20,472 bases of DNA from the IMG/VR virus record IMGVR_UViG_3300045282_000135, positions 1-20,472 of that record. One strand, given 5' to 3'. A model generated the notes under the pieces. The model saw nothing but the letters and a program-made list of their open reading frames with translations, was not told the DNA's origin and made no database searches. Shown in pieces: positions 2,389 through 20,472 of the stretch. The position numbers and the translations under genes are program-made. The DNA is from a virus. The first letter of the stretch is position 1; the number at the start of each line of letters is the position of its first letter.

Positions 2389-2882
2389 CAAGTCGGAATC
2401 CTGGTAGCGCGTATGAAGCCGTTGATGAGCGTTGATGCGTCTCCGGCAGCGCCGCCCGTCCCAGCCTGCATCGTCCCTGATCCTGATGCGACCCACGCAG
2501 CGACGTTGTAGGTGTGGCTGGCGGCTGTGGGTGTGACGGGGAATGAGTGGAAGAGGCCGCCCTGGTTCGTGGAGGCGGGGTATTGGGTCAGTGTCCCGAT
2601 GACGGTCGTTCCGTCGCGGATGATGAGGTTGGTGACGCCGGCGGCGGCGGCGTAGCGGGGGCAGTAGAACTCGATGAGGGTGGGGACAGCTTCGTAGGTG
2701 AGTGCGCCGAGAGAGACGATCTGGTTGGCGGTTCCGACTGTCGTCGCGCTGATGGTGACGTTCGCGGTGAATGCGGTGCGGCCGACTTCTGCGAGGAACA
2801 GGAAGTTGTTGACGAGTTCGTTCCAGTTCGTGGCGGTGACGGTGTATCCGCTTGAGCGTGTGGTGGGGTCGGACCAGGGCAT
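2388..2882 (-). CDS. Small tail-fibre-like structural protein
   Basis: This 164-residue protein is rich in Thr, Ala and Gly and looks beta-structured. Its N-terminus (YTVTATNWNELVNNFLFL, residues 13-30) is of a type seen at the start of phage tail-fibre or baseplate-attached proteins, where a short helix docks to the tail tip. The rest alternates hydrophobic and small polar residues and resembles a jelly-roll or Ig-like tip domain. It starts at an ATG directly adjacent to the stop of the 612-residue tail protein and precedes the lysis genes, the usual place for a receptor-binding component. I recognise no enzymatic motif. A role in host contact is inferred from position and composition. Confidence 0.6.
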   Translation of the reverse strand: MPWSDPTTRSSGYTVTATNWNELVNNFLFLAEVGRTAFTANVTISATTVGTANQIVSLGALTYEAVPTLIEFYCPRYAAAAGVTNLIIRDGTTVIGTLTQYPASTNQGGLFHSFPVTPTAASHTYNVAAWVASGSGTMQAGTGGAAGDASTLINGFIRATRIPT

Positions 2883-4721
2883 CTAGGCGAGGATCGTCGC
2901 TGTGTTTAGTTCCGAGTAGCTGGACTGGCTGAGGTGCCAGACTTGGGTCGCGGCGGCGAAGCCGCGGGCGAGTGCCCATGTGCATGTGAGGTTTTTGGAG
3001 ACGTCGAGGTGTTTCGACTTGCCGATGATCCTTGTGACGATGTCGGGATTCGCGGTGCCGCCGGCGCCTCGGCGTTTGATGCGGATGTATTCGCCGATCT
3101 CCCGCGTCAGGATCTGGGTTCTGCGATTCGTCTGGGCTCCGTTCATGGTGACGGATTCGATGCGGTACATCGGGGTGGAGAAGTGGTCAACGATGCCCTG
3201 GACGATCATCAGCGCATCGCGGTCGTATTGGACGATCAACGCCCCGGGATCCTGGGAACGGACGCCGTACTGGCCTTGGCTGGTCGCGTTGGACGCGGTC
3301 TGGGTGAGGCCGGTTTCTGTGCTAGCTGTAGCTTGGTTGAAGACTTGGTCGTCGTAGACGAGTCCGACGTCGTCGTATTGGACTTCGAGTTCGCCGAGGA
3401 TCGTCTGGATGGTGGTAGCGTCGTCCCATGCGATGTAGTCGGGGTTCCCAGCGTCGTTGAAGAAGAAGATGCCGAGTGGTTGTTCGCATTGGGTCGTTTC
3501 GACGATCTCGTCGAAGAGTTTTTGCCCGGTCTGCATTCGTGGGGCGATGGTGACGGTGCCTGCTGGGATGCCAGCTGTAGACCAGAGCGCGTTTGTGGCG
3601 AGGGTGGCTATGCGGCTGCCCGCGGTGGCGGGGGCATAGCCGCGGGTGATGGCCGCGGTCGCGTGGGCTGCGACGCGCGATGCGGGCAGGGCGTAGTCGT
3701 AGAAGGCGACGTGTGAAAACAGGACTCCGGGGCTGGATCCTCCATTGCTCCCGGCGACGCGGAGGAACTCTCCAGAATCGGGCGACAACGGGGGATTACC
3801 GGCTCCGCCAGTCGAGGCGACTAGGACGCCATCGTGGTAGAGGCATAGGAGGCTGCCGTCGTAGGTCATCGCTACATGATGATGTCCATTCCCCATCGCC
3901 GCTGCGGACGCCTGGATCTTTGTCGCGGCTCCTGTGTAAACCCAGACGAGTCCATCCTCGAGCGCGAAAGTGAAGTCACCGGCGGGTGTATCGAATGGGC
4001 CGAGAGCGACTATGCCAGCACCACCCGCGCCAGGCTGGTAGAAGACTCCTTCGCAACTCACGGCGCCTGAGTCGTGCCAGATGTTCTCGTCGTCGAGTTT
4101 CGCGCGGCCATAACTGGACAGATCGGCTGGCGATGCGGCCAATCCGGAGTCGCCGAGGACGGGGTTCGGCGTCGTGTGGGTCATGTACCCCTTGTAGATG
4201 CCGGATGGCCCAGCAGCAGCATTCAGGGCGCCCCCAGCCTGTTCGTCGAGCGGGTAGTACGCGACGGGGTTGTCCACCGCGATGACATCGCCCATTGATG
4301 TAGCAGACGGCGGGTCAAGAGCCCCCGCTGTCTGCAATGAGAGCAACCCTGTACCGTCGACACAGGTCACCACGACGTCCGACTCTGTCGACCCTGGATC
4401 CGGGTAGACGACCTGGTAGGAGACGGCGTAGTAGGTGCCTTGGGGTCGGCTGACGCCGTCAGCGGTGATCGACCATCGGAAGCGGCGCATGGGGAGGATG
4501 TTCCCTGCGAACCTGCCGCCAGCGTATTCGGGTTCCCAATCCCGGTTCTTGTTCCGCAGGGTGAACGTCGCCTCACCGGCTTGGGGTTGGTCGAGGTCGC
4601 GTTGGATGCCAGCCTTCCAGTCGGCGTCTTTGAGGTAGGTGGTGACGTCGGTGTAGGTGGGGGTGGTGTCGCTGATGGGGTCGGGGCTGAACTCGAGTTT
4701 CGGGGTGCAGTAGTCAGGCAC
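2883..4721 (-). CDS. Minor tail / tail-tip protein with inserted LamG-like domain
   Basis: This 612-residue protein follows the tape measure gene and overlaps its stop by 8 bp (GTG start at 4721). Residues 1-140 and about 370-612 look like the two halves of a tail-tip (distal tail / hub) protein; the N-terminal stretch with YTDVTTYL and QPQAGEATFTLRN is typical of siphovirus minor tail proteins. Between them, residues about 150-358 form a LamG/concanavalin A-like domain: it begins AYYPLDE, contains HHHVAMTYDGSLLCLYHDG (280-298), and ends with HVAFYDYALPASRVAAH (337-353). Such domains bind glycans or proteins, so the insert probably projects from the tail tip to touch the cell surface. No separate distal-tail gene is visible between tape measure and this gene, so this protein may carry that function as well. 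Confidence 0.8.
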   Translation of the reverse strand: MPDYCTPKLEFSPDPISDTTPTYTDVTTYLKDADWKAGIQRDLDQPQAGEATFTLRNKNRDWEPEYAGGRFAGNILPMRRFRWSITADGVSRPQGTYYAVSYQVVYPDPGSTESDVVVTCVDGTGLLSLQTAGALDPPSATSMGDVIAVDNPVAYYPLDEQAGGALNAAAGPSGIYKGYMTHTTPNPVLGDSGLAASPADLSSYGRAKLDDENIWHDSGAVSCEGVFYQPGAGGAGIVALGPFDTPAGDFTFALEDGLVWVYTGAATKIQASAAAMGNGHHHVAMTYDGSLLCLYHDGVLVASTGGAGNPPLSPDSGEFLRVAGSNGGSSPGVLFSHVAFYDYALPASRVAAHATAAITRGYAPATAGSRIATLATNALWSTAGIPAGTVTIAPRMQTGQKLFDEIVETTQCEQPLGIFFFNDAGNPDYIAWDDATTIQTILGELEVQYDDVGLVYDDQVFNQATASTETGLTQTASNATSQGQYGVRSQDPGALIVQYDRDALMIVQGIVDHFSTPMYRIESVTMNGAQTNRRTQILTREIGEYIRIKRRGAGGTANPDIVTRIIGKSKHLDVSKNLTCTWALARGFAAATQVWHLSQSSYSELNTATILA

Positions 4722-6099
4722 CGGCGATGAGGCTCCTGCCGGTGCGGCGGCGAGTGTCCTTGTCGACGCTCACCATCGCGCTGTAGAACACCTTCCCATC
4801 GAGGTAAAGGTGGACTTGGGCCTGGCCGCCACCCCCTCCAGGGGTTATTCCGCCAGACGTGCGGAACCCAGGGATCAATCCTCCGACGCCGCTCTTCAAA
4901 CTGCCGAGCGCGCCGCCGATGTCGGGGACGTGGATCTGTCCAAGCGCGCTGATCAACGAGTGGACGTACCCGATCAGCGTTTGGACGGCGCTGATGATCC
5001 GCTGCACAGCTCCGACGATCGTGTCGAACGCGGCTCTTGCATAGTTGGCGTAGGCGCGGACAGCGCTGAGGGCCATGCCGACGATCTTTCTGAACGTCTC
5101 AGACTTCTTGTAGGCGACGACCATCGCCACGCCGAGCGCGATCACGGCGAGGACGATCAACCCAACCGGGTTCGCCAACAGGGCCGCGTCGAGCGCGGCC
5201 TGCGCGGCTGTCAGGACGATCGTCGTGGCGCGCCACACCTTGTACGCCGCGTTCACCACGAGAACACCAGCCGCGAGCGCCGCCAAGGAGACGACGATGA
5301 TCTTCGTGGCGCGTTGGTTCCGCTGCATCCAATGCGTCGCCGTCGACAACACCCCCGCCAACGTCAAGATCGCGGGGATGAGACTCGTCGTGAGCTCGCC
5401 GGCAACGTTCTTGAACGTCTCCTTCAAGATGTTCAACTGTCCCGGCAACGTCTTGCCTGCTGCCTCGGCTGATCCGCCGAACTCCTTGGTGAGCTCGCCG
5501 AGGATGATCTTCTGGGCCTGCATCTCGTGGCCAGAGTCGATGAGCGCGGTGATCGTCGCCTTCTGCTTGTCCGTGAACTGGACGCCAGCCCTGGTCAACG
5601 CGGTCATGCCCTTGATCGGATCGTTCAACGCTTTGCCGACGAGGAGCGACGCGCTCGTCATGTTCTTCCCAAGCGCGACGGACAGGTTGAGTGTCGCCGT
5701 CGTCGCCTGATTGAAGATGTCGTTGCCCTTTCCCGCCTCGTTGCGGATGTTGCGGAAGGTGAGGAGGACGTTTTCGCCGGACTGGATGACCTCGTCGTCG
5801 ACGCCGCTCTTGTTGAGCAAGCTTTGGGCGAGCGCGTTCACCTGTTTGGCGGTGATGTTCGCTGCGTTGCCCTGAGACTCGATGACAGCGGCGGTCTGGG
5901 CGGCTACCTTTTGGTGCTGCTCCATTTCGTCGAAGCCGATCTTGGCGGCGACGCCGAGGCCGAGGAGCGCGCCGGCGGCGAACTTCGACGCGACGGCGAT
6001 CGACTTCCCGAACTTCGACGTCTTCGTCTGTGCCCGACCGAGCGCAGCCTCGAGACTATTGGAGTCGCCGAGGATCTCGACTTGGATCTTACGCGCCAA
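4714..6099 (-). CDS. Tail tape measure protein
   Basis: This 461-residue protein sets tail length and is threaded through the tail tube. Visible hallmarks are the N-terminal IQVEILGDSNSLEAALGRA, long Ala/Gln-rich helical stretches, two hydrophobic segments (about 264-286 and 308-330, the second containing LANPVGLIVLAVIALGVAMV) and a glycine-rich C-terminus. The position after the frameshifted chaperone genes is diagnostic. It is short for the family: at about 0.15 nm per residue it would specify a tail of roughly 70 nm. The chosen start is TTG at 6099, which places it 8 codons before the end of the frameshifted chaperone, with a GGGAAG purine tract upstream. It carries no recognisable peptidase or lysozyme domain. 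Confidence 0.88.
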   Translation of the reverse strand: MARKIQVEILGDSNSLEAALGRAQTKTSKFGKSIAVASKFAAGALLGLGVAAKIGFDEMEQHQKVAAQTAAVIESQGNAANITAKQVNALAQSLLNKSGVDDEVIQSGENVLLTFRNIRNEAGKGNDIFNQATTATLNLSVALGKNMTSASLLVGKALNDPIKGMTALTRAGVQFTDKQKATITALIDSGHEMQAQKIILGELTKEFGGSAEAAGKTLPGQLNILKETFKNVAGELTTSLIPAILTLAGVLSTATHWMQRNQRATKIIVVSLAALAAGVLVVNAAYKVWRATTIVLTAAQAALDAALLANPVGLIVLAVIALGVAMVVAYKKSETFRKIVGMALSAVRAYANYARAAFDTIVGAVQRIISAVQTLIGYVHSLISALGQIHVPDIGGALGSLKSGVGGLIPGFRTSGGITPGGGGGQAQVHLYLDGKVFYSAMVSVDKDTRRRTGRSLIAGA

Positions 6100-7984: not shown

Positions 7985-8415
7985 GTGGTCCCTCCGACAA
8001 GGATCTGGACTGTCCATTCAACGAGCAGGAACTCACCGCCCTGGGGTGGCGTGACGATCTGGACTCCCGACGCTTCAGTGGCGGAGCAGTCATCACACAA
8101 CCCGCCGAGGTGGAGGTCGGCTTCTATGGCGGCTTTGACCGAATATGGGGCGATGTTCTCCATGAGTCGGTCTAAGAGTTTCTGCGCGCCTTCGCCGTCC
8201 TGGCGGCTGACGACGGCTTGGACAGTGAAGTTCGCGTAGTCGAGGCCGCGACCCATCGCCTGGTCATAATCCAACGCGGGGCCTGTCCCCGATCCGGGGA
8301 TGACTTGGATATACGGGGGGGTGGGGTTCGACAAGATGTATGCGGACGTTTGGATTTCGGGAATGGTGTCTAGGGCAGCGGCGAGCGCGACGCGTAGATC
8401 CGCGATCGAGCTCAC
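7981..8415 (-). CDS. Tail terminator-like (tail completion) protein
   Basis: This 144-residue protein follows the connector gene, overlapping it as GTGA (GTG start at 8415). Its layout, with a helical start (IADLRVALAAALDTI), then PPYIQVIPGSGT, a central beta-rich part, a helix (GAQKLLDRLMENIA) and a C-terminal strand (FLLVEWTVQILVG), matches the tail terminator / DUF3168-like group, which cap the tail tube and join it to the neck. An unusual internal CDDC pair (in GLCDDCSATEASG) appears in the region before the last strand. The call relies on overall pattern and gene order; it could instead be another neck protein. Confidence 0.6.
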   Translation of the reverse strand: MSSIADLRVALAAALDTIPEIQTSAYILSNPTPPYIQVIPGSGTGPALDYDQAMGRGLDYANFTVQAVVSRQDGEGAQKLLDRLMENIAPYSVKAAIEADLHLGGLCDDCSATEASGVQIVTPPQGGEFLLVEWTVQILVGGTT

Positions 8416-9428
8416 ACGAACAACCCCTTCGGCGGCGAGGCGTACTGCATCGCGTACTGGATCTCCGGGTCACGGGCAAATCCCTGTGCGATGAGGGCGG
8501 CGCCGTCTACGCCGAGTGTCGCGAAGCCGGTCGGGTTTTCGCGGGCGCGGCGGAGCATCCGCGTCGCGATGATCGTCGTCGCAAGTTGGACGCCGGCGGG
8601 GATCGTCTGCCACCCGAACTGTCCGGTGATCTTGATCGCGTCAGGATCCGTCGGAAGGTAGAGCTGCGACGCGCCTCGAGCGAGGCGGAGCTTCCGATAC
8701 GGCTCACCGTTTCCGCCGGTGCCACCGACGCCGCCACCACTGATGAGGCCGTTGATGAGGGGGTAGAGGCGATAGTCGCTCGCGCTGAGAGCGGTCGCGT
8801 ATTGGCCGCTTCCGGGGAACCCGGAGTATTCGACGCCGATACTCGTGATGACCATGACGTCGCCGAGGAGGAGATCTATTGAGGTGTAGGCGGTGTAGTA
8901 GCGGACTTCGCCGGGGGGGCGGAGCGTCCAGATCGTGTCGAATGCCGACTCGAGGCCACGACTCGCAGCGCTGATGGCGATGTCGAGATCATTGTCGGCG
9001 TAGGTTTCGCCCGTCAACTGGAGCGTCTTTTTGAGTTCCTCCCTGGTCACGTAGTGGCCGACGGTGGTGGGCGCGTCGGGGGTGATCGTGAGCAGGCGGT
9101 ATCCAGCGTTCGGGTAGGTTTGGATAGCGCCACCGGCGAAGGTGACGGTCCATGCGTAGAGGTAGTCGCCGGCAATAGTGGTTTCGCCGGCGGCGTAGGG
9201 GGCAGCGCCTTCGCCGTAGGCGACTTCGCCCTTCGTGCCGTCTGACCCGTCGCCGTTCTGCTGATTCAACGCGGTCTTCGCGTTGATCGTCGGCGTCCCA
9301 CCATGCAACGGGGTGACGGTGAGTTTGATGGTGGCGCCTTGGATGTCGACGGGAAAGCCATTCTCGTCTTCGAGCGTCTCGAAGATAGGAGATGCTGTGT
9401 CGCCAGCGTTGAGGTAGAAGTCAGCCAC
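8412..9428 (-). CDS. Ig-like domain fused to gp6-like head-tail connector
   Basis: This 338-residue protein seems to be two proteins in one. Residues 1-118 resemble the N-terminal Ig-like domain of baseplate/tail proteins (BppU-type): MADFYLNAGDTASPIFETLE, VDIQGATIKLTVTP and GDYLYAWTVTFAGG. From about 126 it reads like an HK97 gp6-type connector: VTREELKKTLQLTG, DNDLDIAISAASRGLESAFD, and near the end GWQTIPAGVQLATTIIATRM. Connectors form the dodecameric ring under the portal and are usually about 100-200 residues. No stop, internal start with good ribosome site or slip site separates the halves, so I read it as a true fusion. The start is GTG at 9428, six bases after the previous stop. The Ig domain may decorate the neck. 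Confidence 0.7.
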   Translation of the reverse strand: MADFYLNAGDTASPIFETLEDENGFPVDIQGATIKLTVTPLHGGTPTINAKTALNQQNGDGSDGTKGEVAYGEGAAPYAAGETTIAGDYLYAWTVTFAGGAIQTYPNAGYRLLTITPDAPTTVGHYVTREELKKTLQLTGETYADNDLDIAISAASRGLESAFDTIWTLRPPGEVRYYTAYTSIDLLLGDVMVITSIGVEYSGFPGSGQYATALSASDYRLYPLINGLISGGGVGGTGGNGEPYRKLRLARGASQLYLPTDPDAIKITGQFGWQTIPAGVQLATTIIATRMLRRARENPTGFATLGVDGAALIAQGFARDPEIQYAMQYASPPKGLFV

Positions 9429-9434
9429 AGATTC

Positions 9435-11225
9435 TCATTTGAAGTAGGTGGACGCTCCAAGGCGTTGGAACGCGGCGAGGCTCTCCGCGCTTGAATCTAC
9501 GTTGTAGTTCTCGACGCTGGCCTTCACCGTCGTCAGAAGGGCACGGCAGACGCCGGGCTTGTACCGACCGCGAGCAATCAGGCCGAGACGGAGACTGTCG
9601 AGCCACAGCGCCTTGTTGGTGTGGTCCTGTGAAGTGGCGCCGTCCGGGCAACCCATCTCGCCGATGATGAAGTCCTTGTTACGCGCGACGGCAGCGTTCA
9701 CGAGGGGGGCGAGGAGCGTCAACGCGTCCGTCCCGTATCGGAGAACACCCGGAGAGTCGAGGACGTTGTATACGTCCGACCCGAGGTACTCGTAATAGCT
9801 CGAGCCGGCTGGCGCTGGGCTCGAGCCCTTGTCTGGGTCGTAGTCGTCGACGCCCTGCCCAGCGGTGGGCGGGCCGATGCCGTTCGCGCCGACGAACATG
9901 CGATCCCAACCCACATACGCCATGACGATGCATCCACCCTGGTAGGTGCCATTCTTGGTGCGGACAGTGGCGCCGAGGCTGTCCGTGAGGTTGCGGAAGT
10001 GGCGGTACGCGTCGATGAACTGTTGGGCTGTGCCGAGGGGTGCCCATTGGGCGACGGTCGTCTCATGTCCGTAGCAGAGGATGAACGGGTTGGTGGGTGT
10101 CCATTTACCACTGTTGCGGATGTTGGTGACGAGCGTCGTCCAGCTCGCGTCGTAGGTCCCGGCGATCGCCGCGGCGTAAGTTTCTGTGGCCGGATCGTTT
10201 TGGCAGGCGCGGTAGCTCGTGGTCTTCCCGTTGCCGTATTGGGTGATGTGGCTTCCAGTGTTGACCCAGTTCGTACTGATGTCCGCGTTTTCTCGGAGTC
10301 CGGTGAAGATGCGGCCGATCTGGCCTTCGACGGTGGCGATGACAACTCCGCCGAGTGCCTGGTCTGAGACTCCCAGTGTGCAGACGCGAGTAGATGCTTG
10401 GGAGTGTTTCTTCGCCAACGTTTCACCTGACGCTCCCAACGCGATGACGCTGCCGGTGTCGCCCACTGTTCCTGTCGCTCCGTTCGGGCCTGTGATGTTG
10501 GTGCGGGCTCGGCTGCCGGCGCTCCGCGTGGCGCGAGTCCGCGGGGGAGACGCTCCCCCACCGCCGCCCGTGACCGAGACGGTCGGTACGGGGCTGCTCG
10601 CTGATGCCGATCCTGGCGCGGGGGAGATCCGAAGCTGCGGGACCGGCACCAGGGATGACGCCGATGCCGCTGCGGCTGGTGGCGATACTCGGAGTTGCGG
10701 CGTCGATGTTGGGCTGCTCGCATTGGCCGTTGCCTTCGGCGCAGGGATGCTGATCTGGATTGTCGGAGCGGGAGCGCTCGCCGAGGCTGTAGCCGCTGGT
10801 GGCGAGATGATCGTCCCTGTGATGATCGTTGGTACTGGAGCCGAGGCCGCTGCCGTAGCGGCTGGTGCCAGGATGACGATCTGCGGAACTGGCGGGGGAC
10901 TGTTCGCGCTCGCCGTCGCAACTGGAACGATGATTCCAGCCTGAAGCGTCGGAACCGGCGAACTCGCCGAAGCCGTAGCCGCTGATGGCAAGACTCTGAT
11001 CTGCGGAACCGGGATCGGCGCTGAGGCCGAGGCTGTCGCGACGGGGGCGGGAAGTCCGATCTGCGGGACCGGGACAGGAGCGCTCGCCGAAGCGGTCGCC
11101 ACTACCGCAGCGATGCTGATAATGATCGTCGGGGCTGGCGCTGATGCGGACGCCGTCGCGACTGGCGGTGAGACGGTCTGGTTGGTGACGTCCGGCGGTG
11201 GACGTCTGTTGATCCAGAAGCTCAC
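9435..11225 (-). CDS. Virion surface protein: Pro/Ala/Ser repeat stalk plus GH26-like glycosidase domain
   Basis: This 596-residue protein has three parts. A short N-terminus (MSFWINRRPPPDVTNQT) may anchor it to the particle. Residues 19-218 are ten degenerate ~20-residue repeats with the core VATASASAPxPVPQI. A glycine-rich, basic hinge and a few collagen-like Gly-X-Y triplets (GPNGATGTVGDTG, 246-258) follow. Residues about 275-596 resemble the GH26 clan of beta-glycosidases: YGHETT with E388 as likely acid/base, YLGSDVYN (480-487) and FIIGEMG with E523 as likely nucleophile. GH26 enzymes cut beta-mannans and related glycans, but substrate cannot be predicted. The gene follows another surface-type protein gene directly (GTG start at 11225). 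It may be a virion-borne glycan-degrading spike. Confidence 0.75.
   Translation of the reverse strand: MSFWINRRPPPDVTNQTVSPPVATASASAPAPTIIISIAAVVATASASAPVPVPQIGLPAPVATASASAPIPVPQIRVLPSAATASASSPVPTLQAGIIVPVATASANSPPPVPQIVILAPAATAAASAPVPTIITGTIISPPAATASASAPAPTIQISIPAPKATANASSPTSTPQLRVSPPAAAASASSLVPVPQLRISPAPGSASASSPVPTVSVTGGGGGASPPRTRATRSAGSRARTNITGPNGATGTVGDTGSVIALGASGETLAKKHSQASTRVCTLGVSDQALGGVVIATVEGQIGRIFTGLRENADISTNWVNTGSHITQYGNGKTTSYRACQNDPATETYAAAIAGTYDASWTTLVTNIRNSGKWTPTNPFILCYGHETTVAQWAPLGTAQQFIDAYRHFRNLTDSLGATVRTKNGTYQGGCIVMAYVGWDRMFVGANGIGPPTAGQGVDDYDPDKGSSPAPAGSSYYEYLGSDVYNVLDSPGVLRYGTDALTLLAPLVNAAVARNKDFIIGEMGCPDGATSQDHTNKALWLDSLRLGLIARGRYKPGVCRALLTTVKASVENYNVDSSAESLAAFQRLGASTYFK
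10572..11171 (-). repeat. Ten tandem ~60-bp units encoding the Pro/Ala/Ser stalk
   Basis: Within the GH26-like gene, residues 19-218 consist of ten units of about 20 residues, each built as A-T-A-S-A-S-A/S-P, a Pro-rich stretch, then Gln/Ile and a short hydrophobic stretch. The units are similar but not identical at DNA level, so the array is old or under selection for protein pattern rather than a fresh slippage product. Confidence 0.85.
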
Positions 11226-12023
11226 TTATCGCCATGCCATCGTCGCTCGGTTCGCCGCTCGAGGCCGAGGCTGTCGAGTCCGACTGTTGAACGTGAAGGG
11301 CTTCCGAGGTGTCGCCACCGTTGCAGCCGCCTTCATCGCCAGCGTCGTACCAGCCCATAAGGTGCTCACCGCAGCCGTAGCCGCCAAGTGGGGCGCCGAC
11401 GTCGCCGCGACGATGTTCTCCCACCCATAGAACGTGATGCCCTGCGTCGCGGTACCCGCTGGCGACTTGAGCGCCGACACGACGGCTGTCCAACCCGCCG
11501 GTACCTGCGTCCCGAACGCGCCGAGATTCTCGCCAGCCGAGTTGTTCGACAACCCCGCCACCGATAAGAGCACGTCGTTCGCGTTCGTCGTCGTCGAGCT
11601 CGTGCCGGAGTCCCACGCGGTACCGGCGGTGTTCGCGAAGTTCCCCGGCCCCTGCTGATCCACCGGAGATGACGTGTCGACGCCGCTGTATTGGAGCGCC
11701 CACGTCACCGAGTCGCGTGTCACGGTGCCGAGCGTCCACGTGGAGACGTGTGCCGCGGAGAGAGCCGTCCCGGTCGACCACCAGGGCGAGATCGAGCAGG
11801 ACTGCGCTACATTCGGCGCCAGGTTGATCGCGGTCAACGCGGTCCACGTCGCTTCGCCACCGCCGCCAGCTGGAGCCGTGACAGTCGTCGAGCTCGCAGC
11901 GTGGTTGTGCAGGACGAACACGATCAACACGTCCGTCGTCAAGGTCGCGTTCGTCCATGTCACAGATGGGTTGATCGTGGTAGCGAATGTGGCCGAATAC
12001 TGGTTTGAGCGGACGATCGCCAC
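11226..12023 (-). CDS. Putative virion surface protein, Thr/Ala/Ser-rich
   Basis: This 265-residue protein is rich in Thr, Ala and Ser with alternating beta segments (ATFATTINPSVTWTNATLTT, VLIVFVLHNHAAS, DVLLSVAGLSNNSA, ITFYGWENIV). It resembles beta-sandwich proteins found among actinophage structural genes. The last 30 residues depart in style: from ATPRKPFTFNSRTRQPRPRA the tail is strongly basic and without beta pattern. The GTG start at 12023 is preceded by a good GGAGG ribosome site 8 bases upstream. It is followed immediately by the GH26-like gene. A capsid or neck decoration role is inferred from composition and context; no enzymatic motif is seen. Confidence 0.65.
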   Translation of the reverse strand: MAIVRSNQYSATFATTINPSVTWTNATLTTDVLIVFVLHNHAASSTTVTAPAGGGGEATWTALTAINLAPNVAQSCSISPWWSTGTALSAAHVSTWTLGTVTRDSVTWALQYSGVDTSSPVDQQGPGNFANTAGTAWDSGTSSTTTNANDVLLSVAGLSNNSAGENLGAFGTQVPAGWTAVVSALKSPAGTATQGITFYGWENIVAATSAPHLAATAAVSTLWAGTTLAMKAAATVATPRKPFTFNSRTRQPRPRAANRATMAWR

Positions 12024-12037
12024 TCACTAGCCCTCCA

Positions 12038-12511
12038 TCATCCGACGCCGACTCGCATCCAAGCGAAAACGTTGACCGTCGCCGTCGTGTTGATCCGCAA
12101 CGCGAGCGCCTTCACCGTGCCACCCGACTGGTCAGTCTCAGGCTCCTGCCCCTGGTTGTACGCGCGAGCGAACATCCCGTTGAACTGTGGTTCGAAGTAC
12201 GGCTCGATCACCGTCAACGCCGTCGGCTCCGCCGTGTAGTTGTGGCCAACCGTGAACTGGGCCGTCGCCGGCCTCCCCGTGACCTGCACGACGGCCGGGA
12301 CTGAACCCGCCGAGGTGCCAGCGCCGGCCTGTGTGGACTGGCAAAGGTTCACCGTCGCTGGGACGGCTGTCGAGGTGGCGCCGTCCATTGTGACTGCCCA
12401 CTCGAGGATGTCGATCTTCTGGTTCGCGCCAGCGATGACGTTCAACACGGTTTTCGCGCCCGTCGCGGCGGAGAAGACGGTGTTCTGGACGATGTAGATG
12501 GCGTCGGCCAT
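12038..12511 (-). CDS. Putative structural / decoration protein
   Basis: This 157-residue protein begins MADAIYIVQNTVFSAATGAK and looks beta-rich throughout, with conserved-looking segments KIDILEWAVTMDG, FTVGHNYTAEP and VNVFAWMRVGVG. Proteins of this kind (jelly-roll-like small structural proteins with a closing aromatic strand) occur among virion genes of actinophages and may decorate the head. It starts at an ATG directly next to the stop of the previous gene, and another surface-type gene follows. I cannot name a family. It could equally be a head fibre or a host-contact protein; absence of any catalytic motif argues against an enzyme. Confidence 0.6.
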   Translation of the reverse strand: MADAIYIVQNTVFSAATGAKTVLNVIAGANQKIDILEWAVTMDGATSTAVPATVNLCQSTQAGAGTSAGSVPAVVQVTGRPATAQFTVGHNYTAEPTALTVIEPYFEPQFNGMFARAYNQGQEPETDQSGGTVKALALRINTTATVNVFAWMRVGVG

Positions 12512-12814
12512 CTACCCCACCAGCCCCTTCATCCGCGTCACGTGGTGAGTGGTGTCGTGGGTGACGACGCCGGCATCGTCGATAGTGAGCGCTTCGTTTC
12601 TGGCGACGCGGTATGCCTTGAGGGCGCGTTTGAACTCGACTGGCCCAGCGACCTTCTTGCCGTCCTTCTCGATGCGGAGCGAGATGCCCGGTGTGACCAT
12701 CTCGTTGTGAGCAGCCTGGAGGAGCGCTTCTTCGACGGTGTTGTAGGTCGAGTGCGTCTCGACGACGTCGCCGGCGACGTCGAGGCGGTCCATGTAGACG
12801 AGTGTGACGGTCAT
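12512..12814 (-). CDS. Unknown small protein, 100 residues
   Basis: The frame is open further upstream to 13015, but residues before MTVTLVYMDRLDVAGD are arginine/histidine-rich shadow of the neighbouring gene. The ATG at 12814 overlaps the preceding stop as ATGA and is preferred. The protein is mixed alpha/beta and charged, with VETHSTYNTVEEALLQAAHN, ISLRIEKDGKKVAG and a His/Asp-rich end (THDTTHHVTRM). It sits between two structural-type genes. I do not recognise it; it might be a small assembly factor or minor virion component. Confidence 0.6.
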   Translation of the reverse strand: MTVTLVYMDRLDVAGDVVETHSTYNTVEEALLQAAHNEMVTPGISLRIEKDGKKVAGPVEFKRALKAYRVARNEALTIDDAGVVTHDTTHHVTRMKGLVG

Positions 12815-13263
12815 GCGACGACCACGCTGATGATCCCGGAAGCGTTCCAGGCGATGGTGAGCGTCGCCCCAGCGGGGGCTGTGGCGGTGCCGCCGAACAA
12901 GACGTAGCTGATGAGGGGTTTGACGCCGGCGCCTGGTGTCGAGTCGTAGACGACGGCGCTGGTGGCGCTGATGCCGGCACCTGAGGCTGTCCATGAGGCG
13001 TTCGCTGCTGTCCACGAAGTCGTCTGTGCGCTCGTCGTCGCCGCCGAACCACAGGTGACTCCGCCAGCGGTGTACCCGTTCGCGGTGGAGAGTTCAGTCC
13101 ATGCCGCGTTGAATGGGGCAGCGTCGAAGTATTTGTGGGTGGCGACGTAGGTGTAGGCGGTGTTCGACAGGGCACACTTGATGACGTCGGTGCCGTCGAT
13201 GTCTGCTTCTTTGTTCCACGTCGTGGTGAGCAGCATCGGGTACATGAAGGCGGTGACGGCCAC
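12811..13263 (-). CDS. Putative structural protein, 150 residues
   Basis: This protein starts at a GTG that overlaps the upstream stop (TAGTG at 13265-13261). It begins MAVTAFMYPMLLTTTWNKEA, continues with DGTDVIKCALSNTAYTYVAT and has a long Thr/Ser/Ala-rich middle (TSAQTTSWTAANASWTASGA), then SAVVYDSTPGAGVKPLISYV and a closing LTIAWNASGIISVVVA. The pattern of a conserved frame around VVYDSTPGAGVKPLI and a terminal strand is familiar from small structural proteins in actinophage head modules. A head decoration or fibre role is likely but not proven. Its Ser/Thr-rich middle would offer many glycosylation sites, which is notable beside the sugar genes. Confidence 0.6.
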   Translation of the reverse strand: MAVTAFMYPMLLTTTWNKEADIDGTDVIKCALSNTAYTYVATHKYFDAAPFNAAWTELSTANGYTAGGVTCGSAATTSAQTTSWTAANASWTASGAGISATSAVVYDSTPGAGVKPLISYVLFGGTATAPAGATLTIAWNASGIISVVVA

Positions 13264-13663: not shown

Positions 13664-14356
13664 CTATGCGCTCCTCAAATCGGGTAGTGGATACTCAGTC
13701 GCGACGCGGTCACGCTGCGCCAAGTAGTCGAGCTGGTTCTGCTGGCGATGCTTGGGTCGGATCCAGGTGCGGTGTTCGATTTCGGCGGGGGTGATGACCG
13801 AGTCTTCGAGGTGGCCGTCGCCCCAGAGCTTCCGCCCGTCCGGCGTGATGTAGGTGTAGTGGTTGCCTTTGACTTGGATGCCGGGGATCGCGCGGAACAA
13901 GCAGCGGACGCGGCCCAGCGAGGGATCGTGGATTTTGTTGCGCTCCCAGAACACGACCTCGCCTACGTCACAGCTCGTCTGCTCGAGCGTCTCCCGCAAC
14001 CCGAGCGACGTGGTGACGACCTCGTCAGCGTCGAGGATCAAATACCAGTCCTCATAGGGGGTGGCGACGAGGTCAGCCAACGCGAAGCCGAGCGACCGCT
14101 TCTCGAGCTCGTTGCCTACATACGCCTCGGCCGGCGAGTAGAGCGTCAACCCGAGGTTGTGGGCGTCGCAGACTTCTCGAACTGCCGCGTGCTGCTCTGT
14201 CCCGCTCCTGGGGTGGCGGACACCGTCGGGGTAGCAGGCGAACGCTCCGTCGAGGGCTATGAGGTGTTCGCCGCCGGCTCGGGCGAACGAGGCGACCGCC
14301 GCGGCGAGCCATTCGGGCTGCTCGTCATACCAGATCAGAATCCCGATCAGACGCAC
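13664..14356 (-). CDS. Glycosyltransferase, GT-A fold (GT2-like)
   Basis: This 230-residue protein should transfer a sugar from a nucleotide donor to an acceptor. The DADE motif (in WYLILDADEVVT, about residues 104-115) is the metal-binding DxD signature of GT-A enzymes, and the N-terminus (LIGILIWYDEQPEWLAAAVA, followed by GGEHLIALDGAFACYP) has the usual first strand-helix of GT2 proteins. Later FWERNKIHDP and GNHYTYITPDG suit acceptor-site loops. It overlaps the end of the epimerase gene by 10 bp (GTG start at 14356), indicating coordinated expression. No membrane segments are present, so it should work on a soluble acceptor, such as a virion protein, or on intracellular DNA or lipid; the virion is the best guess from context. 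Confidence 0.75.
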   Translation of the reverse strand: MRLIGILIWYDEQPEWLAAAVASFARAGGEHLIALDGAFACYPDGVRHPRSGTEQHAAVREVCDAHNLGLTLYSPAEAYVGNELEKRSLGFALADLVATPYEDWYLILDADEVVTTSLGLRETLEQTSCDVGEVVFWERNKIHDPSLGRVRCLFRAIPGIQVKGNHYTYITPDGRKLWGDGHLEDSVITPAEIEHRTWIRPKHRQQNQLDYLAQRDRVATEYPLPDLRSA

Positions 14357-15087
14357 ACAGCCTCCACGACGGGGTCGTGGGCGGAGATGATGCGTAGAAC
14401 CCCGTCAAACGGCTCTAGACGCTCGTTAGAGGCGCACAGCGGCTCCGCGAGTCTGTCACCACGCCGAGGCGGAATCAGCGCTAGGTCGCGTCCTGGATAC
14501 TCAGCCTTCGCGACCTGCGTCATGTCCCACGCCGGCCCCGGGTCAACCGTGTACCGACCCGACGGCAACGTCGCTGCTTCGATGAGCAGATCGACGGCCT
14601 GGCTCGAGGAGATGAAGTAGCGGCGGCACGGCGTGACGGGAATGAGGCCAGGCGCTGGGATGTTGCGCCAGGTTTCGAAGACGTTGCCGCAGGTTTCGCG
14701 GACGTTGTAGAAGCGACACACGACACCACCAGCGGCGAGGACGATCTTCTCGGCGAGCAGCTTGGAGGCTCCATAGGCCGTTTCGGGGTCGGCGGCTTTG
14801 CAGGTCGAGGCGAGCACGAACCTGGCGCCCCTGTCTTCGGAGAGGCGGACCATGTTGAGCGTCCCAACGGCGTTTACGCGGACCGCTGTTTCGGGGTCTG
14901 CTTCTCCGTCGGGGGCGCTTTTCGCGCCGGCGAGGTGGTAGACCAAGTCGAAGTCGCCGACATCCTGGGGGTTGGTGACGTCGAGGGTGTCCTTGTCCGT
15001 CGCGAGAACGTTGAAGCCTTCGAGGCGCTTACGGAGGGCGGTTCCGATGCTGCCCCGAGCACCGGTGATGAGGATCCGATCGATCAT
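14347..15087 (-). CDS. NAD(P)-dependent nucleotide-sugar dehydratase/epimerase (PseB/CapD-like SDR)
   Basis: This 246-residue extended short-chain dehydrogenase has a Rossmann start ILITGARGSIGTAL (GxxGxxG), a DLVYHLAGAKSAP strand, and the active-site region LASTCKAADPETAYGASKLL, with Ser/Thr plus the Tyr-x3-Lys pair (YGASK). This matches the PseB/CapD/FlaA1 pattern ST-D-K-A-x-NPTN-x-YGA-T/S-K, with Cys in place of the usual Asp. These enzymes convert UDP-GlcNAc-type sugars by 4,6-dehydration and sometimes 5-epimerisation. At 246 residues it is shorter than PseB (about 330), with a compact substrate domain. Its ATG overlaps the acyltransferase stop (ATGA). It may supply the sugar used by the next gene's glycosyltransferase. 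Confidence 0.75.
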   Translation of the reverse strand: MIDRILITGARGSIGTALRKRLEGFNVLATDKDTLDVTNPQDVGDFDLVYHLAGAKSAPDGEADPETAVRVNAVGTLNMVRLSEDRGARFVLASTCKAADPETAYGASKLLAEKIVLAAGGVVCRFYNVRETCGNVFETWRNIPAPGLIPVTPCRRYFISSSQAVDLLIEAATLPSGRYTVDPGPAWDMTQVAKAEYPGRDLALIPPRRGDRLAEPLCASNERLEPFDGVLRIISAHDPVVEAVCV

Positions 15088-15509
15088 CGAAGCTTCCTCG
15101 CCGGGTTACCAGCCCAGACTTCTCCTGCGGGGACGTTCTTGGTGACTACGGCGCCCATGCCGATCCGCGCGTCATCGCCAATCTCAACGAATGGCTTCAC
15201 GAGTGCGCCAAGGCCGAACTTGACTCGCCGGCCGATGGTGCAGTGACCGCCGATGATGGTGCCGGGGGCGAGTTCGCAGCCTTCCTCGAGGACAGCGTCG
15301 TGGCCGACGTGGGTCTTGGTCATCAGGAAGCAGTTGTGGCCGATGATGGTGTGACCGGCGATGCCCGCGTCGACCGTGACGAAGCTATTGATCCTGACGC
15401 CAGAGAAGATCAACGGCTCGAAGGTCTGTTGGGACTGGTCGGCGAGCCATTCGCGGTGTTCGGGGGGATCGCCGATGATCGCGGTGGCGTGGATGACGGG
15501 AGCCCCCAG
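15084..15509 (-). CDS. Left-handed beta-helix acyltransferase (NeuD/PglD-like), start uncertain
   Basis: The protein is a hexapeptide-repeat acyltransferase that acetylates a sugar or amino sugar with acetyl-CoA. Repeats run through AGHTIIGHNCFLMTKTHVGH, DAVLEEGCELAPGTIIGG and HCTIGRRVKFGLGALVKP, ending in the typical DDARIGMGAVVTKNVPAGEV and WAGNPARKL. The His in THVGHDA fits the catalytic His of PglD/NeuD. The reading frame contains no ATG or GTG between the capsid stop and the conserved N-terminus (VIHATAIIGD). The coordinates use a CTG at 15509, five bases after GGAG, giving 141 residues; the first TTG (15413) would cut off the opening repeats. The stop overlaps the epimerase start as ATGA. 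Confidence 0.65.
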   Translation of the reverse strand: MGAPVIHATAIIGDPPEHREWLADQSQQTFEPLIFSGVRINSFVTVDAGIAGHTIIGHNCFLMTKTHVGHDAVLEEGCELAPGTIIGGHCTIGRRVKFGLGALVKPFVEIGDDARIGMGAVVTKNVPAGEVWAGNPARKLR

Positions 15510-15522
15510 GGAGGCTCCCGTC
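15495..15522 (-). promoter_or_regulatory. Strong hairpin after the capsid gene, spanning the acyltransferase start
   Basis: GACGGGAGCC (15495-15504 on the plus strand) and GGCTCCCGTC (15513-15522) form a perfect 10-bp GC-rich stem with an 8-base loop, 31 bases after the capsid stop codon. On the transcript the GGAG ribosome-site candidate lies in the 5' arm and the candidate CTG start lies in the loop. There is no U run after it, so it is not a classical intrinsic terminator; it may lower expression of the sugar genes relative to capsid, or stabilise the capsid mRNA end. Confidence 0.6.
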
Positions 15523-15553
15523 GTTCCATGCTGTGTTTCGAGGTTGGTCAGGT

Positions 15554-16918
15554 TTAGAAGGTCGGCGTTCCCAGGCCAGCACCCGACACGACACCAGTCG
15601 CGGCGGGGTAACGACCCGCCGTGAACGCGGCGTAGCCGTAGCAGACGAGCTGGACCTGCAACGATGTGCCGGCCTGCTGCTCGAAGCTGAGGGTGACGGG
15701 GTCGCCGCCACGCTCCCAGAGATGCACAACCTGGCTGGCCATCACGATGATCCGATCCTCGTTCGTGCTGACGCCGAGGTTCGTCGCGATGTTCGCGTCG
15801 GTGTAGACGGGCAGGCCGTGCATGTACCCGACGAGGCCATACCCGGCGGTGTTGCCTTCGCCGAGGACGTTGACGGCGGGCTGGCCCTGGATACCGAACA
15901 ACGGCCGGTTCTGCGTGTCGACTGCGGCTTCGAAGAAGCCCCAGCGGCGGGGGTGCATGACGATCTTGTCGGCGACGTAGCCGATGCCGCCCATCGCCGT
16001 GTTGATCTGCTGGATGACGTCGGCGATCTTCGGCCACACACCAGCGATCGTGTTCGTGCTGGCGGTCGACGTGGAGATGCCGGCGGTGTTCAGGATCCCG
16101 AGGAGCTGGCCGGCAGCGCCAGACCCTGAGATGGCCTGCGAGTCGAGGAGCGCCCAATAGCGAGCGGTGAGGTCCTCGAACAGGACGCGATCGTCGTAGG
16201 CGGCTCGCTCGAGCGCCTGCCGCGATACTGGCAGGTACCCGGCGAGGGTGCGAACGTTGATGGTGAGGTCAGTCTCGACGATGTCCTGGGTGGTGGCAGC
16301 CGTGTTTTCTGTGGCCTGCACACCCGCGGCGGACGGAGTCGTGATCCGCGGGATGATCACCGACATGCCAGTGTCGGGCAGTTCCATGTTGTTGACCTGG
16401 TCGGCGAGGACGCGCCCGTTGCGGGCAGCCTTGGCGTAGAGGCCGATCAGGTACGCCGGCGGGATCAACCCACCCATGACGGTCGAGGTGATGGCGCGCT
16501 TCTCGACCTCGAGGGTGTTGTGCCGGTCGAGGCGCTTGCGGGCCTCGGTGTCGTTGTTCATCTGCGCCTGGTACATGTCCGCGAAGAAGCTGCGGCCACC
16601 CTTGACGTAGAGGTCAGGCTCACGAACGACGACCTTGTCCTGCGCAGTCGTCAATGGCGTGAACTGGCTCTTGGCGCGGTCAAGCGACTCGCGCTTCTGG
16701 AGCACGTCGTTTCGGTGCTCGCAGTCGGCGATCGCGTCGTAGGCGCGGGTCTTGAGCTCTTCGAGGTGCTCGTCGTGCTTGTCGCGCTCCTCAGCATCCG
16801 CCGGGGGCGTCGACTCGAGGGCCTCTTCGTACTGTGCGACGGCGTTGTCCTTCGCTTCGACGGCGGCGTTGTAGCCGTCGCGGAGTTCGATGAACGTCGC
16901 CCGCTGTGCTTCGGGCAT
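15554..16918 (-). CDS. Major capsid protein, HK97 fold with N-terminal delta domain
   Basis: This 454-residue protein builds the icosahedral shell. Residues 1-85 are charged and helical (delta domain), acting as an internal scaffold that the protease removes; no separate scaffold gene is present. A likely cleavage region is near residues 130-140 (RHNTLEVEKRA). The mature part shows HK97-family features: GGLIPPAYLIG, MSVIIPRIT, LPVSRQALERA, SQAISGSG, ADKIVMHPRRWGFF and a C-terminal QVVHLWERGGDP then SFEQQAGTSLQVQLVCYGYA. The ATG overlaps the protease stop as TAATG, with an AGGAG site six bases upstream, suited to high expression. It is followed by a strong hairpin and then the sugar genes rather than connector genes. 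Confidence 0.92.
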   Translation of the reverse strand: MPEAQRATFIELRDGYNAAVEAKDNAVAQYEEALESTPPADAEERDKHDEHLEELKTRAYDAIADCEHRNDVLQKRESLDRAKSQFTPLTTAQDKVVVREPDLYVKGGRSFFADMYQAQMNNDTEARKRLDRHNTLEVEKRAITSTVMGGLIPPAYLIGLYAKAARNGRVLADQVNNMELPDTGMSVIIPRITTPSAAGVQATENTAATTQDIVETDLTINVRTLAGYLPVSRQALERAAYDDRVLFEDLTARYWALLDSQAISGSGAAGQLLGILNTAGISTSTASTNTIAGVWPKIADVIQQINTAMGGIGYVADKIVMHPRRWGFFEAAVDTQNRPLFGIQGQPAVNVLGEGNTAGYGLVGYMHGLPVYTDANIATNLGVSTNEDRIIVMASQVVHLWERGGDPVTLSFEQQAGTSLQVQLVCYGYAAFTAGRYPAATGVVSGAGLGTPTF

Positions 16919-18922: not shown

Positions 18923-19146
18923 GCCTTGACGACCTCGTAAAACGCGACGCGTTCCCGCGGCAACCGGAGCTCCTTCGCGTCGAGCTTGTCCGCATTCCCA
19001 CCAGCCGCGAACAACAACTCGGGCACACCGAGGCGATACTCCTTCAAGGCATGGTCAAAGCCGAGCAGGACGCCCTCCACTGAGGGCAGAGCGACGCGGG
19101 GACTCTCATCGACGAGGTGCATCCTCACCCGCTTCCGTGCTCTCAC
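18919..19146 (-). CDS. Small conserved protein between terminase and portal
   Basis: This is a 75-residue protein if it starts at GTG 19146, which overlaps the terminase stop as GTGA; the frame can be extended to a TTG at 19161, and an ATG at 19122 is a further choice just before the conserved part. The core reads HLVDESPRVALPSVEGVLLG, EYRLGVPELLFAAGG and LPRERVAFYEVVKA. Small proteins with this SVEGVL...VP.L...PRE.V.F pattern lie between terminase and portal in many actinophages; they look like small beta-barrels. The function is not known to me. Confidence 0.7.
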   Translation of the reverse strand: MRARKRVRMHLVDESPRVALPSVEGVLLGFDHALKEYRLGVPELLFAAGGNADKLDAKELRLPRERVAFYEVVKA

Positions 19147-20472
19147 CAGCCACTCGCCCAAGCCTGCGCGCCACTCAACTCGACTGCCACACTGTGCGCC
19201 ATCGACGCGGCCGTCAACCCATCGATCACGCGGACATCCTGCGCCTGCACATCCCTCCGCGACTGGATCGGCCGATCAAACCGGGCATCCCCACTGGGAA
19301 GGACTCGAGCGACCGCGTTCAAGACGTGCTGCGTCAACGTCGCATCATTCGAGTGGTGCAACCAGCCTTCGCGGAGTGCCTCCATGAACCGGTCATAGTC
19401 GGCGACGGCCTTCTCGTTCGTCTGCGACCGATCGACCACGACAGCGCCGAACTGTTGGCTGATCCACTCGCCGAGCTGCTCCGCCCTCGAGGTGTCCATC
19501 ACGACGGTGTGGAGCGGGTTCCGCTCATGCAGTTCGATCAGGCTGCGCTCTACCAGGTTCGGATCGAGACTCTGCCCATTCCGCGGCGGCACGAGGATAC
19601 GCGCCGGCCCCAACAGGCGATAATCAGAGTCGCGCCACCACAAAGGGACGATCGCCGTCGTGTCCCACTTCCACGCGACATCCAACCCCACCCAGATCGG
19701 CTCACCCGGCGGAATCAACTCCAGCGTCGCAGCCGAGTGCCACTCCGCCTCCTGGATCGCCGCATACTCGCCACGCGTCGGCAAGTTGCACACGAACCGG
19801 CGCCAATGAGCCAACGTCATCGTCGGCGACGCAAACGCCTCCGACAGCCCCTCCACCGTCACCCCCGAAAACGGATTCGCCATCTTCACCAACGCCATAT
19901 CCTCCACATCACCCTTCTCAGGCACCGCCCACTCATGCAAAATCAGATTCTCGGACGCTGACCTGAGGAAACACTCGCCGCGCTCGAGATCGCCGGCCTG
20001 CCGAATCCGCTCCCGCGTCTGCTCAAACTCCCCAAACGGCTCACCCGCAGTCGAAATCGTCACGATCTGACCATGCCGCTTCCGAATCTTCCCCCGCCAC
20101 GTCCGATACAACCTCAAGTCCCGGTGACGGTGAAGCTCGTCGATGATGCACAACGTCGGGATGATCCCATCCCCCGTCCGATCATCCGCCGCGAACACCT
20201 GGATCCGCGAACCATTCGCCAAACACTTGATCCGCCGATACCCCTCCTGCGGCTTGAACAACTTCCGCAACCGCGGCGACCTGAGCACAAACCCCTCCGC
20301 CTGCCGATACATGATCTCCGCCTGCTCACGGCTGCTCGCCGCCACAGGAACCGCCGCCGAATCCCGAAACTCGCAGTGATACAGGGCAAGTCCAGCCAAC
20401 AACGTCGTCTTACCGTTCCCCTCAGGCACGATAAGCCAACATTCGTCGTACCCAGCGAATACATCCCGCAGA
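19143..20472 (-). CDS. terL: Terminase large subunit (5' end beyond window)
   Basis: This is the ATPase-nuclease motor that cuts and packages phage DNA. The frame stays open to the window edge; a GTG at 20429 lies inside the Walker A motif and cannot be the start. Visible residues (442) include Walker A VPEGNGKTT, Walker B LCIIDELH (DE about 70 codons into the visible ATPase core after it), coupling motif TISTAGEP, and a nuclease domain with acidic residues in WVGLDVAWKWD, TVVMDTSRAEQ and RVIDGLTAAS. This is the HK97-type (Terminase_1) family. About 60-100 N-terminal residues are likely missing. Its codon third positions are G-rich, unlike downstream tail genes. The small terminase should lie outside the window. 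Confidence 0.93.
   Translation of the reverse strand, partial: LRDVFAGYDECWLIVPEGNGKTTLLAGLALYHCEFRDSAAVPVAASSREQAEIMYRQAEGFVLRSPRLRKLFKPQEGYRRIKCLANGSRIQVFAADDRTGDGIIPTLCIIDELHRHRDLRLYRTWRGKIRKRHGQIVTISTAGEPFGEFEQTRERIRQAGDLERGECFLRSASENLILHEWAVPEKGDVEDMALVKMANPFSGVTVEGLSEAFASPTMTLAHWRRFVCNLPTRGEYAAIQEAEWHSAATLELIPPGEPIWVGLDVAWKWDTTAIVPLWWRDSDYRLLGPARILVPPRNGQSLDPNLVERSLIELHERNPLHTVVMDTSRAEQLGEWISQQFGAVVVDRSQTNEKAVADYDRFMEALREGWLHHSNDATLTQHVLNAVARVLPSGDARFDRPIQSRRDVQAQDVRVIDGLTAASMAHSVAVELSGAQAWASGW

Follow-up and report, generated by a model that had tools for sequence, protein, structure and literature searches.

Decoration proteins of phage capsids have been reviewed as binders and collagen-like spikes, and the words glycosidase and hydrolase are absent from that review (PMC7602432). 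In the satellite phage MiniFlayer (OQ357865), a tail-fibre gene and three hypothetical genes were proposed by the authors as a possible adsorption module, and short fibres as well as contact of the capsid with the helper phage were seen (PMC10690885). For mangrove soil, a viral gene of glycoside hydrolase family GH26 has been catalogued among auxiliary metabolic genes (PMC6460857).

Here we describe a gene that joins a repeat stalk to a GH26-like domain, found in an uncultivated viral sequence (IMGVR_UViG_3300045282_000135; the whole stretch analysed, 20,472 nucleotides, is called the window below). We think it probable that this gene belongs to a tailed soil phage and encodes an exchangeable fibre of its virion, tipped by a divergent GH26-like glycosidase and forming part of a hyper-variable adsorption module. 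In this reading an anchor at the N-terminus would carry a stalk of ten repeats, probably trimeric, and a short collagen-like joint would link the stalk to the GH26-like tip. On or around the host, the tip would attach to a beta-linked polysaccharide and cleave it by a retaining two-glutamate mechanism, with E388 as acid/base and E523 as nucleophile, and cutting may loosen a capsule or matrix, or may make adsorption reversible.

Locus, exchange of parts and place on the particle

The gene (9435-11225, minus strand; the initial annotation had given the interval without a strand) encodes 596 amino acids, from a GTG start at 11225 to a stop at 9435-9437. According to PHROG assignments, the gene order runs from terminase through portal, protease, major capsid protein, sugar-modifying genes and small proteins to the stalk gene, which is followed by an Ig-like/connector gene, tail terminator, major tail protein, tape measure, tail genes and endolysin; the stalk gene thus stands between the major capsid protein and the connector and tail terminator, in the head half of the map, as had been proposed. 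All neighbours named here are on the minus strand. Immediately 5' of the stalk gene, with stop and start abutting, is a gene for a 265-residue protein (11226-12023), preceded by genes for a 157-residue protein (12038-12511; 45% identical to its counterpart in contig L002) and for a phrog_644-family protein (12811-13263; PHROG and tblastn) that is kin of MiniFlayer gp6. On the 3' side, one gene (8412-9428) carries an Ig-like N-terminal part and a connector-like part; in L002, L095 and MiniFlayer the Ig-like part has a gene of its own, upstream of the connector or adaptor gene.

Between the capsid and stalk genes, 13664-15557 (minus strand) encodes a glycosyltransferase-like protein (weak match, E 0.12), an NAD-dependent epimerase (PF02719, E 3.8e-24) and a hexapeptide acyltransferase (E 4.1e-18). 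This set is a candidate virion-glycosylation cluster, and the Ser/Thr-rich stalk is a possible substrate. Epimerase and glycosyltransferase-like genes likewise lie 3' of the coat protein in L016. At 15554-16918 and 19143-20471 (minus strand) mosaicism is strong: compared with L002, the terminase is 72% and the coat protein 26% identical.

Related viral contigs carry the same stalk with other ends, and other stalks with the same end. The stalk with its ATASASAP core recurs in five other contigs (L009, L010, L083, L085 and L084, of which L084 and L085 are mutually close). L009, L010 and L085 have this stalk with a glycine-rich end (ATGASG...TSGQTGA in L009/L010) and without GH26, and in L083 it is interrupted by an inserted domain. 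The L083 protein (2639-5167, 842 amino acids) consists of an N-terminal domain, two repeats, the inserted domain, for which Pfam gives no match, and over ten additional repeats. A second, Arg-rich stalk type is found in L002, L006 and L095, and here only L002 has the GH26 tip. The particles of L002 and L095 are otherwise nearly identical (89% in the coat protein, 92% in the connector and 91% in the major tail protein), and it is in this slot that the pair diverges most: their stalks are 47% identical and the GH26 tip is absent from L095; the protein next to the stalk in this slot is about 28% identical, a rough guide, as the L095 frame may not be coding (abutting ORF 4200-4997). Conversely, the 265-residue neighbour in the window is 84% identical to that of L006, yet the two phages differ in stalk type and in tip, L006 being tip-less. 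BLAST joined these neighbours only among the window, L006 and, in part, L007, and we therefore rejected the idea that they form one family in all relatives.

The window and L002 share only 25-26% identity in their coat and portal proteins; despite this, their GH26-like domains are 63% identical with a dN/dS of 0.31, which argues that the tip travels between virions under constraint. By this measure the domain is under purifying constraint. Taken at the level of sequence, these comparisons newly show, as far as computation can do so, that the tip is apparently exchangeable on stalks between phages. The start of the stalk gene abuts the stop codon of the upstream gene in all seven intact cases (window, L002, L006, L009, L010, L085 and L095). 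A hyper-variable slot among near-identical particles is where an adsorption protein would be expected and, together with the corresponding slot of MiniFlayer, it leads us to interpret the product of this gene as a fibre whose tip acts on glycans.

Where such a fibre would be attached is a separate matter, and capsid, neck and tail are all possible. The initial annotation had placed the enzyme on the head, which is not established: relatives of the protein at 12811-13263 occupy a capsid-adaptor slot in MiniFlayer, but stand among tail genes in four cultured actinophages. These phrog_644 relatives lie 3' of the tape measure in Gordonia phages GMA1 and Sixama (annotated there as 'minor tail protein'), Tsukamurella phage TPA4 and Rhodococcus phage REQ3, and beside them are proteins with 22-24-residue repeats whose signal exceeds that of shuffled sequences in Sixama and REQ3 and is marginal in GMA1 and TPA4. 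Gene order is consequently a weak argument for a capsid location. Other viral GH26 genes adjoin tail genes too (tape-measure or baseplate genes in L061, L066 and L049), and that of L050 follows head-decoration and tail-fibre-like genes and precedes the tape measure. These observations make it quite possible that the module was relocated beside the capsid genes while the protein itself is assembled into a tail or neck fibre; against this, the module is flanked by capsid genes on one side and connector or adaptor genes on the other in MiniFlayer, the window and seven related contigs (L002, L006, L009, L010, L083, L085 and L095). Returning to a capsid- or neck-borne enzymatic fibre, in which an exchangeable polysaccharide-cutting enzyme would be held on stalks away from the tail tip, we put it forward only tentatively. 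In L046 (330-2003), the reading frame of a GH26 domain runs on into an SU10-type head-tail adaptor (Pfam E 6e-19); we rejected this junction as proof of a GH26-adaptor fusion, as an RBS-like AAGGAAG precedes an internal ATG (possible start 1323).

The GH26-like domain

The C-terminal domain (residues 284-596; 9438-10376, minus strand; residues 261-596 were used in searches) falls below every cut-off in Pfam, NCBIfam and PHROG. Pfam, NCBIfam, PHROG and PDB sequence searches gave no match for the protein alone or for a three-row alignment. The domain does not reach the curated cut-off of PF02156, which is a threshold of detection and not of mechanism, and it has no Pfam match at all; for this reason we class it as GH26-like and not as an ordinary member of GH26. 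No relative of the domain was found by tblastn among cultured phages (matches at E of about 6-7 were judged to be chance), by domain scans of genome contigs or by scans of 400 genomes from the phylum of the L016 contig, and the viral model library lists phage GH5 proteins, not GH26. Its close relatives are on two viral contigs, L002 and L003 (a partial contig).

More sensitive comparisons connect the domain to the family. A 21-member GH26 profile, built from PF02156 loci in genomes that share a phylum with the L016 contig (titled Chloroflexi MAG), scored the window domain at 32.1 bits and that of L002 at 25.4 bits, whereas none of 2002 shuffled or reversed controls exceeded 4.3 bits; the window domain was not recognised by a profile made from the classical mannanase-like cluster. 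In hhalign, alignment A1 matched A7 (98.1%, E 1.2e-13), and PDB searches with profiles containing the retrieved GH26 proteins gave the lichenase CtLic26A as first match. We discarded an AF2 model made from three sequences (pLDDT 35). The model made with alignment A8 (pLDDT 69.9, pTM 0.79; 63 residues under 50) has alternating strands and helices; with it, Foldseek placed the CtLic26A entries on top (E 1.9e-14), and VIA-align against CtLic26A gave Z 26.8 and an rmsd of 2.7 over 268 residues, with xylanases next (Z 22.5-22.6) and mannanases after them (about 19.6). The GH26-like glycosidase fold suggested by the initial annotation is therefore borne out by the profile score and by a (beta/alpha)8 barrel, predicted at a pLDDT of 70, whose nearest structure is CtLic26A; as far as computation can confirm it, from alignment and model together, the domain is a GH26-like (beta/alpha)8 barrel. 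Mannan had been a guess as substrate and is not favoured, since the nearest solved structures are a lichenase, then xylanases and only then mannanases.

The HE and GE motifs are where they had been placed (H387-E388 and G522-E523), and the AlphaFold check proposed at the time, now run, returned the barrel with E388 and E523 at the predicted ends of beta4 and beta7. E388 (10062-10064, minus strand), the predicted acid/base, stands in a column without variation across the 29 rows of A8, 26 of which are phage GH26 domains, and the 19 of A6; the column of E523 (9657-9659, minus strand), the predicted nucleophile, is invariant in A6 and nearly so in A8. The two residues follow strands beta4 and beta7 in the AF2 model and align with the catalytic pair of CtLic26A, E388 with E109 and E523 with E222. 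Both glutamates, the preceding His, and D484 and Y486 of a GSDVYN motif (9768-9776, minus strand; conserved GH26 positions in the alignment) are kept in the window and L002 domains.

At the remaining active-site positions conserved in GH26 (Arg before HE, the Asn after it, the beta8 Trp), however, the domain departs from the family. Both members have Cys for the Arg before HE, Val for the Asn, and Leu or Phe/Leu for two Trp; both also have Tyr for the beta3 Trp and SPxxG(S/T) for YPGD. Given these shared changes, the domain could be a binder, and catalysis, like the substrate, is a matter of inference. The tip may thus be lectin-like, a barrel without useful catalysis that serves as a carbohydrate-binding adhesin on a stalk, an alternative in keeping with the Laminin_G (concanavalin-like) domain of MiniFlayer gp8 in the same slot and with T4 Hoc, T5 pb10, SPP1 gp12 and phi29 gp8.5, which are non-enzymatic binders (PMC7602432). 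We nevertheless consider it somewhat unlikely, because the catalytic pair, the preceding His and D484/Y486 are retained in both members.

N-terminus, stalk and the meaning of the fusion

The first 18 residues (11172-11225, minus strand) are a candidate anchor kept in L009 and L010. The N-termini of the window protein and these two relatives (MSFWINRRPPP, MAFYIARRPPE and MAFYINHRPPP, each followed by NQTVSPPVA) match, which supports the start codon and the N-terminus of the stalk gene.

The stalk itself (residues 19-218; 10572-11171, minus strand; also in L009, L010, L083 and L085) has the ten repeats of about 20 residues that had been noticed, with starts at residues 19, 39, 59, 79, 99, 119, 141, 161, 181 and 202 and lengths of 20-22. 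Its self-identity is 0.46 at a lag of 20 and 0.48 at a lag of 40, whereas 2000 shuffles reached no more than 0.27 at any lag. Tandem Repeats Finder detected no repeat array in the DNA, which argues that the copies are old and that the pattern is maintained at the protein level. Ala is invariant at repeat positions 5, 7 and 9 (25 repeats, five phages). One could regard the stalk as an artefact, an unstructured Pro/Ala/Ser linker with no structural role; its composition would fit, as would the lack of any match to profiles or structures, but this is unlikely, since in five phages the repeats keep a strict register of 20/22 residues and an Ala that never varies at alternate positions, a pattern upheld in the protein where the DNA has no repeats. 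Considered as a structural stalk, it could reach at most 62 nm (200 residues at about 0.31 nm), so the 'tens of nanometres' of the initial annotation stands as a fully extended upper bound and not as an expected length; a folded trimeric repeat would make the stalk several times shorter. The stalk leads to the hinge and collagen-like triplets described before, namely GGGGG and four G-X-Y triplets, GPNGATGTVGDTG, at residues 246-258 (10452-10490, minus strand), the counterpart of the TGxSG tails in tip-less relatives.

This fusion bears on how such genes are interpreted. Lists of auxiliary metabolic genes from soil viromes include GH26, as an aid to the host in digesting plant carbon; the present GH26-like enzyme, joined to a structural stalk and encoded in a hyper-variable slot, points rather to adsorption of the virion. 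It is very improbable that the gene encodes a soluble glycosidase aiding soil polysaccharide degradation by the infected host: soil-phage GH26 genes have been so annotated (PMC6460857; GX15bay), but the protein shows no obvious signal peptide (judged by eye), its domain is fused to a repeat stalk common to structural-module proteins, and the gene abuts structural genes in all members. Fusion and synteny together offer a simple test for sorting other viral glycosidases.

Comparison with known systems

With CtLic26A (the Clostridium thermocellum GH26 lichenase; PDB 2bv9, 2bvd, 2cip and 2cit), the window domain shares the predicted barrel, the order of elements and the positions of the catalytic glutamates; it differs in that identity is 17-18%, several conserved active-site residues are changed, and the domain is mounted on a phage repeat stalk. 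Four uncultivated phages (L048, L059, L061 and L066) likewise have a GH26 domain within a phage structural protein. Unlike the window domain, those of L048, L059 and L066 pass the Pfam GH26 cut-off; the partner domains differ, and the L061 and L066 genes adjoin tape-measure genes.

MiniFlayer, a cultured Streptomyces satellite, resembles the window in the position of its module (gp6-gp9), which is flanked by the genes for the major capsid protein and the head-to-tail adaptor, in a phrog_644 protein (38% identity, tblastn 1e-4) and in a long multi-domain protein with a carbohydrate-type domain, Laminin_G in MiniFlayer. It also has a small gene at the Ig-like position before the adaptor, whereas in the window the Ig-like part is fused to the connector-like part. 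The MiniFlayer protein differs in its Laminin_G domains, its different repeats and the lack of a GH26 match, and the MiniFlayer virion has no long tail. Between gp8 and the window stalk no common sequence was detected, and the repeat signal of gp8 is marginal. In gp8 (5867-9997 of L092, the MiniFlayer sequence) the Laminin_G domains lie inside PMxGSGxxP repeats.

Lastly, the decoration proteins and head fibres T4 Hoc, T5 pb10, phi29 gp8.5 and SPP1 gp12 are like the proposed fibre in being elongated, of a dispensable type and glycan-interacting, some of them collagen-like (PMC7602432). None of them is described as an enzyme in that review, whereas the window fibre would be one, with gene order as the basis for a capsid location. 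Should the fibre indeed sit on the capsid or neck, enzymes would join the known roles of decoration proteins.
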